Source: an uncultured Candidatus Berkelbacteria bacterium (GTDB lineage: Bacteria > Patescibacteriota > UBA1384 > UBA12157). From it: a stretch of DNA of 44,842 nt. Below the pieces are notes generated by a model. That model did not search any database, was not told where the DNA came from, and saw nothing but the letters and a program-made list of their open reading frames with translations. This document shows positions 2,105 through 18,339 of this stretch, piece by piece; position 1 is the first letter of the stretch; each line of letters opens with the position of its first letter. Where the stretch lies: NCBI GenBank assembly GCA_903877885.1, contig CAIRFN010000012.1, positions 1 through 44,842 of the forward strand, written 5' to 3'. The translations under genes and the position numbers were made by a program.

Positions 2105-5100
2105 ATGAAAGACTACGATTTTAAGGCGATTGAGGCTAAGTGGCAGAAATATTGGACTGATACAAATTACGGCATTGCCGAGGATTTTTCTGATAAACCT
2201 AAATTTTACTCCTTGATTGAATTTCCATATCCTTCCGGATCAGGCCTTCATGTTGGTCACTGTATGATGTACTCGGCTGCTGATGCCCATGCTCGAATGA
2301 TGCGGATGAAAGGTTACAATCTGATGTTTCCGATGGGCTGGGACGCTTTTGGCCTGCCAACAGAAAATTATGCGATCAAAAATAAAGTTAAACCTCAAAT
2401 TGTCACCGAACAATCGGTTAAAACTTTCAAAAAACAACAGCAATCGATTGGTTATTCTTTTGACTGGTCGCGCGAAATAAATACCACTGATCCAAACTAT
2501 TACAAATGGACTCAATGGATTTTCTTGCAATTTTACAAACATGCGGTTGTTGATGGAAAATTAATCGAAGTTACTGATGATGATACCACAACTCCTCGAC
2601 TTGCTTTTCAATCTGAAATGCCGGTTAACTGGTGTCCTTCTTGTAAAATTGTTTTAGCCAATGAAGAAGTGATCAATAATAATTGTGAGCGTTGTGGTGC
2701 GGGAAGCCAAAAACGCAAACAAAAACAGTGGATGCTTCGGATCACCGATTACGCCGACCGTCTGATTAAAGATTTGGGCACAGTCGATTATTTGGATAAA
2801 ATCAAAACCCAGCAAATCAATTGGATTGGTAAAAGCGTTGGAAGCAATATACAATTCAAAATTCAGAATTCAGAATTAAAAATTAATGTCTTTACGACTC
2901 GGGCTGATACCTTGTTTGGCTGTACCTATATTGTGATTGCACCGGAAAGTGATTATATTGCAATGGTCAAAGATCAGGTATCAAATATCAAAGAAGTCGA
3001 AGAATATATTAAAAAAGCAAAATCCAAATCTGATATTGATCGAACTGATGCTGATAAAGACAAAACCGGCGTAAAACTGGAAGGCATAAAAGCGATTAAT
3101 CCAATCAATGATGAAGAAGTTGATGTTTATGTTGCGGATTATGTTCTCGCCTCTTACGGCACTGGCGCAGTTATGGCTGTGCCTGCTCACGACGACCGCG
3201 ATTTTGCCTTTGCCAAGAAATATGGGATAGAGATTAAACAAGTTATCAATGAAAAGATTGCCACGTCGCTGTCAGCTCCTCGCAATGACGATAATCAGGC
3301 CTTTACCGATTACGGAGTTTTAGTTAACTCTGGCGAATTTAGTGGCTTAACCTCTGAAGAAGCTAAAACGAAAATTACTGAAAAATTAAAGAAAGATGAT
3401 TTAGGCGATTTCACTACTAACTTTAAATTGCGTGATTGGATTTTCTCGCGCCAACATTATTGGGGCGAGCCAATTCCGATTATTCATTGCGACAAATGTG
3501 GCATTGTCCCTGTTCCAGTCGATCAATTGCCGGTTACTTTGCCAGATGTGGAAAATTACGAACCAACCGATACTGGCGAATCGCCACTCGCCAAAATCGA
3601 TTCTTGGGTCAATGTGAAATGTCCGAAATGTAATTCTGACGCCCATCGCGAAACCGACACTATGCCAAACTGGGCCGGTTCCAGTTGGTATTTCTTAAGG
3701 TATTGCGATCCCAAAAACGATCAGTTCTTTACAAAACCCACCTTTTTCCAACCAGAAATAGAAGTAACCGAAAAAGATAAGAAATATATTGAAGAATTTA
3801 AAGCCATTTACACTGATTTAGACCAAAAAGGAATCAAAACTTGGGCTGCGAATCGATTTATGCTCAACGGCATTAATCGAAAAGTCTGGCTACCACTTCG
3901 AACAATTTCAGTCATGGGTTCTCTTAAAGATTTACCAGTTGTTGAAAAATATGTAATTGATAATAATTACAAATTAGAAACAGTCTATCCATACGGTAAG
4001 CTTTTCATTAAAGATGATATCCGATTTGAATATGTCACTTTCGAAGAAAAAGATGGAAAGCTAATCTCCTTTTCAGAAAAGGGTGCTATTCAAGAAATGT
4101 CAAAAAATGATTTACCGGAATTTCCGCTAGGTGTTATTGATGATTTCCATTATCGAGTTTGTTCACCAGAATATAATTTAAAACATTATAAATTTATTTC
4201 TAAAAATGAATCAGAAACTCGCCAAGGTTTGGGCGATGAAGAAAAAATTAAATTCTTAGAAGAATGGCTAGAAGCAAATAATAGCAAGCGATTATACTGG
4301 ACGCCGGTGGATTTGTATAATGGTGGGCCAGAGCATATTACTTTACACCTTCTTTATTCTCGTTTTTGGCATAAATTCTTGTACGATTTAGGTGTAGTAC
4401 CGACACTTGAGCCTTATCAAAAAAGAATTCAACATGGAATTATTTTAGGGCCAGACGGTCAAAAAATGAGTAAGTCCAAAGGCAATGTGGTTAATCCAGA
4501 CGAAATGGTAGAAAAATTTGGCGCAGACACACTTCGCGCTTATATGATGTTTATCGGGCCATACGATCAAGAGTCTGCCTGGAATAATGCCGGAATTATG
4601 GGTGTTCACCGTTTCTTAAAACGCGTAGTCGCCAACTCCGAAAAGGTAAATGTTACTAAGGATACGAACGACGTCTTAGTAAAATTGAATCAAACAGTCG
4701 CTGGCGTAACTGATGATTTGGAAAATTTTCAGATGAATACGGTTATTTCTAAATTAATGGAATTAAATAATCTGTTTGAAAAACAAGAAAAAATTAGCAC
4801 TGAATCATTTAAAACATTCTTGCAAATTCTTTATACGGCTTGTCCGCATATTGCTTCGGAACTTTGGTCTGAAATCGATAATACTGTTTCGATCGAACAA
4901 ACGGCTTGGCCAGTTGCCGATGAAAAGTATCTATTAACCGATGAAGTTGATATTGCTGTCCAAATTAACGGCAAAACCAGACAAATCATTAAAATCAAGC
5001 AAAATGCCAGCCAAGAAGAGGCGGAAAATTTAGCTAAGGCTGACACAAAAATCAGTGAGTTATTAAATGGCCAAAATATCAAGAAAACTGTCTATGTTAC

Positions 5101-15543: not shown

Positions 15544-18339
15544 TTACCACTCAAAAACATCAACAATCTTTTCGATCACGCCCTTAATACGACTGATGAT
15601 TCCGTGACGTTCTCTAATAGGCGGCACACTCGGCAACATATCGGCGACATCTTGTTCACTTGGCATTTTTTGCGAATACAAATATTCGCCAATCAGCCCT
15701 TCAATTTTTTCAACAGAAATACTTTCTTTTTCGGCTAAATCTTTCAAAACATTTGATCGCTCGCTAGCCCAATATTCGGCAAACGCTTTTTCGACATCAT
15801 CGACCTTGCTCACATTTGGTAAATTTTGCTCGATAAACTTTTTGATCAAATCTTTTTTCTTGCGTAACTGAACATCGCGATCGAACAATCGAAGAATGTC
15901 CTCAGTCTTTCTTTCGCGTATTGAGTCAGAAGTAATATTTTTAAGACCAGCAATTAAAAGAATAATGTAATCAAAATTAATTACATCTCGAATCGTTAAT
16001 TCCAACTCGAAATCGATCTGATCCAATATTGATTCAGGCCCATTTCCGGGATTCTTTCGTTCCTCATAAATATCTAAATATTTACTTTGATAGTCATAAA
16101 ATTCTTGTTCGGAAATTCCTAGTTCATTAAACGAAAATTCAGCGAAAGTCTCCAGTGACGACTTAATACGTAATAAATCTCGAAATGTTTTGACAAACGA
16201 AGCCTTTTCTTCCTCACCCTGCAAAGAGTCAACGGAACTAACAGTTGGTACTTTTTCTTTAAGTTCAATTATTTTCTTCTCAAATTCTTGTTTTTGCTCT
16301 TCATACGGTTTTTTGAAAACAATTTCTTTAGCATTTTCATCACCAAACAAAGCCAGTGCTGTATCAGTCGCTTTTTTTAGATTTCTAAATGAAATAATAT
16401 TGCCATGCGGTTTGTCAGAATCCAATAATCGATTTGTTCTTGAATATGCTTGAACCAAGCCGTGATAGCGCAAATTTTTATCAATATACAAAGTGTTAAG
16501 TCGCGGACTATCAAACCCAGTTAAAAACATATTTACCACCAAGACCAAATCAACTTCTTTGTTCTTGATTCTTTTTTGTAAATCACGGTAATAGTCATAG
16601 AAACGATCGGTCGAATAATTAGTAGAATATGTTTGATTATATTCTTTAATACAATCATCTAAAAAGTCACGCGAGTGTTGATTCCCGGCCGTTCCTTCGC
16701 CGGCAAATATATCAATATCTAAATCAACACTATCATCTTCGTTAGCTTGATAAGTAAAGATTGTAGCAACTTTAAAATCTTCTGCTTTTTTAGCCTTGAA
16801 CAAACTATAATACTTTTTCAAAACATCGATATTGGAAACTGCAAAAAAAGCGTTAAACTTTCCGTTTTTCGTTTTTCTTTTCCAATCAGCCAAAATATAA
16901 TCGGTGATTTTATTTAGTCGATCATCACTTTCAAGCACTTCTCTTGAATCGATCCCGTCAACCAGTGCATCGGCAAAAATATCTTTTTCAATCGTATCGC
17001 TTTCTTTTTGCTTATACTTACCAACATACTCAACTGCAAAACCAAGCACATTATTGTCGGAAATCGCATTAGTAATAATATATTTATGAAGACAATCATG
17101 AAATACATCTTTAGTGGTCACTCCGCCAACATTATTTTCGGCAAAAATTGGCGTACCAGTAAAACCAAAAAGTTGCGCTTTTTTAAAAAATGCTTTGATC
17201 CGAGCGTGAGTCTGGCCGAATTGACTACGGTGGCACTCGTCAAAAATAATCACCACTTTTTCGTCAGTTAAATATTGCAACCCTTTCAAATATTGATCAC
17301 GACCAATGGCGATATCCAATTTCTGAATGGTTGTGACGATCAACTTCCGATTTTTATCTTCCAGTTGCGCTACCAAATTACGAGTATTGTCAGTGCCGTC
17401 TACAGAGCCATCAGAAAAAGAATTGAATTCTTTGGTCGTTTGGATATCTAAATCCTTACGGTCAACAACAAACAAGACTTTTTTGATTTCGGCAATGCGA
17501 GACAGAACCTGGCTAGTTTTGTACGAAGTCAAAGTTTTACCAGATCCAGTCGTGTGCCAAATATAACCGTTTTTGTCTGACTCTTTGACTCGTTTTTCAA
17601 TCGCTTTGACCGCATAGTACTGATAAGGCCGCAAAATCATTGGAATTTTCAGTGATTCCGCTAGAACAATATATTCGCCAATCATTTTGGAAACGGTGCA
17701 CTTTTCCAGAAATGCAGCCGTAAATTCGTCTAGTTTAGTAATTTTATTATTCTGTTCATCCGTCCAATAAAAAGTTTGTTCAAAAGATTGATTTGGATTG
17801 TTGGAAAAATACTTAGTATTGACCCCGTTGGAAATCACAAAAATCTGGACATATTCAAATAAAGTCACTGTAAACGAATGTTTATGATACCGTTGGATTT
17901 GGTTAAAAGCTTCTTTCATCTCCATACCACGGCGTTTAAGTTCAACCTGCACCAAAGGCAAACCATTAACCAAAAGTGTCACATCATAGCGATTTTCATA
18001 TCGCCCCATTTGAGTCACCTGATGCGTCACTTGATACTCATTCTTGCACCATTGATCCATATTAAAGAATCGGACGTAAATTTTAGTGTCGTCATCGCGA
18101 GCGAGGGCAAAGCGATCTCTTAAGGTTTTAGCCTTCTGAAACCGATCGCCTTTATTTAGATGGTTTAATATGCGAGAAAATTCGGCATCAGAAAAAGTAG
18201 TCTGATTAAACTTTTCCAGCTGTGTTTTTAAATTCGCAATCAATGCCGCAGTATCAGCCAGTATCACCGGCGCAAACCCCAGCCGCTTTAATTGCACCAT
18301 TAGGGTTTCTTCAAGTTGTAGTTCTGTTTGTGTTGTCAT
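15544..18339 (-). CDS. hsdR: type I restriction endonuclease subunit R
   Basis: 931 residues. The N-terminal nuclease domain has [18 protein letters not shown] (Asp, Glu-x-Lys) near residue 120-135. The superfamily 2 translocase motor follows, with Walker A TGSGKT near 265 and DECH near 368, then TGTP and the later helicase motifs to about 700. The C-terminal helical part contacts HsdM. It pulls DNA through the complex and cuts at a distance from unmethylated sites. Starts 14 bp after the 248-residue gene. Confidence 0.96.

Follow-up and report, generated by a model that had tools for sequence, protein, structure and literature searches.

A nucleotidyltransferase-like domain with replaced catalytic residues inserted in the leucyl-tRNA synthetase of a Candidatus Berkelbacteria bacterium

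The leucyl-tRNA synthetase (LeuRS) of an uncultured Candidatus Berkelbacteria bacterium contains, within its catalytic region, an additional domain that is related to nucleotidyltransferases (NTases) and in which the catalytic residues of these enzymes have been replaced. The insert very probably originated as a captured NTase. We also consider it probable that this enzyme was of the ANT(2'')/Lnu type, that it lost its catalytic activity, and that it has been kept as a non-catalytic binding or structural lobe. The window, i.e. the whole stretch of DNA that was analysed, comprises 44,842 nucleotides, and its relevant features are listed in Table 1.

Table 1. Features of leuS and its inserted domain, in window coordinates.
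Feature	Position	Strand	Basis or remark
leuS, leucyl-tRNA synthetase, 1008 aa	2105..5131	+	HIGH-type and KMSKS motifs and editing domain present
Inserted domain, NTase-like, catalytic residues replaced (aa 541-728)	3725..4288	+	Loop flanked by SSWYFLRYCDPKND and WTPVDLY (site D)
Helix 1 in the predicted NTase fold (model residues 18-36)	3770..3826	+	Model
Stretch also matching phage family phrog_7070 (RFxLNGxNxxVWxP)	3788..3943	+	Profile and pairwise match
Asn583-Arg584, aligned with the NTase G-G/G-S motif	3851..3856	+	Alignment
Thr600-Ile-Ser602, aligned with the D-x-D metal motif (RTISV for HRDID)	3902..3910	+	Alignment
Glu642, aligned with the third metal aspartate	4028..4030	+	Alignment A1, less certain here
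VCSPE, counterpart by alignment of CISPE, a C-terminal element in LnuA/ANT-type NTases	4157..4171	+	

The leuS product matched TIGR00396 in two stretches (E = 7e-282; 937 bits vs a cut-off of 548). In the genome search, profile positions 1-509 and 512-842 were both matched, such that hardly any profile position was missing and about 183 residues were extra. As this is the only LeuRS of the genome, it is presumably essential and working. The LeuRS of T. thermophilus (1h3n) aligns to residues 1-541 and resumes from residue 728, which locates the insert between T. thermophilus residues 519 and 525. An earlier sequence-only reading had proposed that some 180 residues split the catalytic region at 3737-4288. 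These coordinates correspond exactly to residues 545-728 and the T. thermophilus alignment indeed breaks there; the extra stretch begins a few residues earlier, at about residue 541. In total, a segment of approximately 181-185 additional residues takes the place of part of a loop whose usual length, in nearly all relatives, is 19 residues. We compared the length of this loop, which runs from the SSWY(x)xRY strand to PVDxY, in 25 Patescibacteria LeuRS, two of which failed to match the search pattern. The loop measured 19 residues in 20 of the 25 proteins, vs 200 in the window, 190 in genome G057 and 32 in genome G042.

Searched alone, the insert gave no Pfam or NCBIfam match at E ≤ 10 and no sequence match in the PDB. 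Its best match among 380 Patescibacteria genomes was the insert at the same site in the LeuRS of G057, a member of another class, and the reciprocal search from the G057 insert returned the window insert (1.3e-4). Pfam assigned the G057 insert to Aminoglyc_resit (PF10706; 29 bits vs a cut-off of 21) and weakly to NTP_transf_5, and both parts of its GS...DIDI motif, including the DxD aspartates, are intact (FWVSGSVALNALN...TDINDIDIIVE). Smith-Waterman alignment of the two inserts gave Z 8.5 over almost the entire window insert (0 of 1000 shuffles). Ahead of the first predicted helix, both also have a PEI..(S/T)E linker. The free-standing NTase of genome G074 (PF10706, E = 2.7e-18) aligned to the window insert with Z 7.8 (0 of 1000 shuffles), while unrelated LeuRS, Nudix and Ham1 segments, used as controls, gave Z values from -1 to 2.8.

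Profile comparisons extended this relationship along the insert. A profile built from 15 NTases, with the window left out, gave a collinear match along 163 residues (profile 10-162 to insert 14-176) with E = 2e-4 among 559 sequences and scored above 2000 shuffles; hhalign of this profile against the insert returned a probability of 81% (E = 1.3e-5). The profile match persisted when the middle of the insert was masked (8 of 2000 shuffles were as good) and the C-terminal part on its own also gave a match (2 of 2000 shuffles). The C-terminal half alone gave no significant match to NTases in single pairwise alignments, and a profile of viral NTases failed to detect the insert.

The insert is predicted to adopt the palm fold of NTases. 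Its AlphaFold model, based on an alignment of 11 sequences (the window, G057 and viral NTases), reached pLDDT 70 and pTM 0.67, with values of 83-95 over about residues 11-110, and the order of helices and strands is that of NTases. In a Foldseek search of the PDB, LnuA ranked first (E = 1.6e-6), followed by ANT(2'')-Ia (4e-6 to 9e-6); further matches were FKRP and TM1012. Among viral models, LicD-type NTases were matched. The structure prediction that the sequence-only reading had called for supports NTase homology, but not independently, because the alignment contained NTases.

The GG/GS motif and all three metal aspartates are replaced in the insert (Table 1), and because of these substitutions it should neither bind the metal pair nor transfer nucleotides. 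A likeness in motif order to lincosamide and aminoglycoside NTases, with the metal aspartates lost, had been suggested from the letters of the sequence; the NTase at the same site in G057, the pairwise and profile scores, the model and the substituted positions agree with that assignment. The best structural matches, LnuA (4fo1) and ANT(2'') (4wqk, 4xje and 5cfu), have a polymerase-beta-like fold (PF10706) and resemble the insert in predicted helix and strand order, in the positions of the motif segments and in the CSPE-like element. In contrast to these free-standing enzymes, the insert lacks the metal aspartates and the GG motif, falls below Pfam detection and resides within LeuRS. An antibiotic role is not implied by this likeness.

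We propose that an ancestral LeuRS took in a small free-standing NTase of the ANT(2'')/Lnu type, in frame, at a loop on the surface of the catalytic domain where insertions are tolerated. Judged from its residues, the captured domain would then have lost the GG motif and the three metal-binding aspartates, and with them nucleotide transfer. Most likely it forms a lobe of its own next to the active-site domain of LeuRS, and was probably retained, without catalysis, either for binding (with tRNA or a protein as its partner) or for a structural role.

In a tree of the LeuRS core, the window was sister to G042 (100/99; 63% identity), whose 32-residue loop at site D is without the domain. The G057 core was placed elsewhere, with G345 (91/95), and does not form a sister pair with that of the window. 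A tree of the inserts neither united nor rejected a clade of window and G057 (p-AU 0.33), and placed the window insert on a very long branch. The NTases at site D may have been captured independently, the loop being permissive, or may derive from a transfer that was followed by losses. Among 55 genomes of the same class, the insert was detected in this genome alone. The earlier reading expected a LeuRS alignment across Patescibacteria to reveal when the insert appeared; its restriction to one genome of the class and its absence from the sister G042 answer this question in part. No relative of the insert was found in scans of GTDB contigs and viral contigs or in a search of phage records, and a search of plasmids gave only a short Paenibacillus match. 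A second draw from the phylum, centred on G312 and consisting largely of the same genomes, added no LeuRS that has an NTase at site D. Several candidate matches were rejected: a weak one in G044 (E 0.007-0.03), because its 184-aa open reading frame reads as an unrelated protein of the transcriptional-repressor type, those in G182 and G210 because of internal stops, and one in G137 because its open reading frame reads as ribosomal protein S1-like.

It is possible, if rather unlikely, that the insert has no function at all and is a once-working NTase, carried within LeuRS as in G057, that is now decaying and merely tolerated. The motif at the same site in G057 is intact, inserts elsewhere in Patescibacteria LeuRS mostly keep their active-site motifs (e.g. 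intact Nudix boxes), and the window insert, on its very long branch, occurs in one genome of its class; all of this would suit a passenger. So would base composition: the insert has a GC content of 0.319 vs 0.389 in the remainder of leuS and a GC3 of 0.228 vs 0.36, only 17 of 506 coding segments of the same length in the window ranked lower, and the low GC3 would fit a recent as well as a decaying passenger. However, all 184 codons are free of stops and frameshifts, even though losing the insert would trim an essential gene of a reduced genome, and the first ~110 residues are still modelled with high confidence. Because the frame is open and the core of the model is confident, we infer that a retained binding or structural role is more probable than a tolerated relic. 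The insert is missing from close relatives.

The N-terminal part of the insert also resembles phrog_7070, a small family of Staphylococcus and Bacillus phage proteins of unknown function that includes ORF114 of Staphylococcus phage K. Insert residues 18-69 (LeuRS ~562-613) matched positions 7-58 of the 91 in the family profile (E = 9.4e-5). The members tested gave Smith-Waterman Z values of 7-15, and the profile gave a p of about 8e-10, no weaker than any NTase match. The overlap centres on ANRFMLNGINRKVWLP, where 10 of 16 positions are identical, exactly at the expected catalytic segment of the NTase. This part could accordingly be a phage segment rather than an NTase, alone or fused with NTase remnants. 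We regard such an origin as improbable, since the same stretch matches the N-terminal halves of the G057 (Z 9.5) and G074 (Z 7.2) NTases, the linker shared with G057 precedes it, and the NTase at the same site in G057 constitutes independent evidence. Moreover, the first 20 residues look helical and fit NTase helix 1, and because several large libraries were searched, the E-value understates the odds of a chance match. There was no mutual match between phrog_7070 and the other NTases tested. This conflicting resemblance could be due to chance, to convergence after catalysis was lost, or to a short stretch of foreign origin.

An enlarged standard LeuRS element (the leucine-specific domain or a CP loop) is scarcely credible: the loop is longer than the usual 19 residues in G042 (32) and in some other relatives too, but the exact 19-residue norm in 20 of 25 LeuRS, the Pfam-recognised NTase at the same site in G057 and the position of the insert refute this explanation in substance. 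The leucine-specific domain, which is variable and absent in some bacteria, is likewise an insertion in the LeuRS catalytic domain, but it is much shorter and lies elsewhere, just before KMSKS; it is absent from the window LeuRS, where alignment with T. thermophilus (1h3n) leaves 1-2 residues between the blocks before KMSKS. An intein or homing element was rejected on the missing Pfam match at E ≤ 10 and the NTase nature of the G057 insert, and a chance open frame was also considered and rejected.

Inserted domains also occurred in other long LeuRS of the phylum. Inserts of about 100 aa or more occurred at three other fixed sites in 19 of 20 proteins, which were picked for their length such that no frequency can be derived. 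At the start of the editing region these were Ham1-like, HAD, serine hydrolase and Y1 transposase domains. Nudix domains lay inside the editing domain, and Ham1-like and serine hydrolase domains followed the YCDxC zinc knuckle; Pfam confirmed the insert families in the LeuRS proteins scanned. The full Nudix box was retained in most LeuRS with a Nudix insert. Site D held an NTase in the window and G057 only, and the G057 LeuRS (DYJS01000001.1) combines HAD, two Ham1-like, Nudix and NTase domains, i.e. five inserted domains in one chain. Like the window insert, those at the other sites (Nudix, Ham1-like, RBBP9-like serine hydrolase, HAD and Y1 transposase-like) are whole small-enzyme domains in a fixed surface loop; unlike it, they mostly keep recognisable active-site motifs and use the three other sites. 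The UvrC of G098 (C14) contains an NTase (PF10706) inserted ahead of its endonuclease part, with the GG...DFD motif present, which indicates that the habit of domain insertion is not limited to LeuRS.

On balance, we lean towards the view that patescibacterial LeuRS has served as a chassis that repeatedly captured complete small enzyme domains at four fixed loops, with up to five per protein (G057), and that the window represents one captured enzyme turned into a non-catalytic part of the synthetase. G057 and the window represent an apparently active and an inactive state of an NTase at one site. The recurrent capture of domains at fixed sites may matter more than the window insert itself, and makes it possible to examine whether essential genes of reduced genomes harbour small enzymes as passengers, and by what route a passenger turns into a dead accessory domain.

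Transfer RNA synthetases with extra domains are known. In the literature searched, which was confined to open-licence papers, we found no account of such domain inserts in LeuRS, i.e. of whole enzymes inserted repeatedly at the same loops of its catalytic core in genomes of ~1 Mb. A comparable case is the MetRS of Mycoplasma penetrans, likewise a tRNA synthetase of a reduced genome, which carries an aminotransferase and an NTase-like domain (PMC13215547). It differs in being a MetRS with an N-terminal fusion, and in that its NTase-like domain belongs to the Rossmann-type sugar-NTP superfamily rather than to the polymerase-beta type.

Some further observations concern LeuRS sequences and the surroundings of leuS. 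The conserved W.PVD segment of LeuRS is broken by short low-complexity peptides in G225 (SPSPQSSPIKGEEAIGNPPPLVGGVRGG) and G044 (DAGDAARSSKSGGG), reminiscent of the in-frame insertion of a small repeat element. A LeuRS match at G223:C1:374889-375251 lies in an open frame of 24,558 aa, which is probably a masked stretch. At two sites of the editing region where relatives hold whole domains, the window LeuRS has the short extra peptides FKIQNSELKIN and IATSLSAPRNDDNQ (2855-2887 and 3257-3298); a second copy of either DNA stretch was not found within the window. A type I restriction enzyme, HsdR, is encoded at 15547-18339 (-). Just upstream of leuS lies a gene for a large serine recombinase (408-1922), the 3' end of which overlaps a tRNA-Ala gene on the opposite strand (1911-1987), a possible sign of an integrated element at the contig end.
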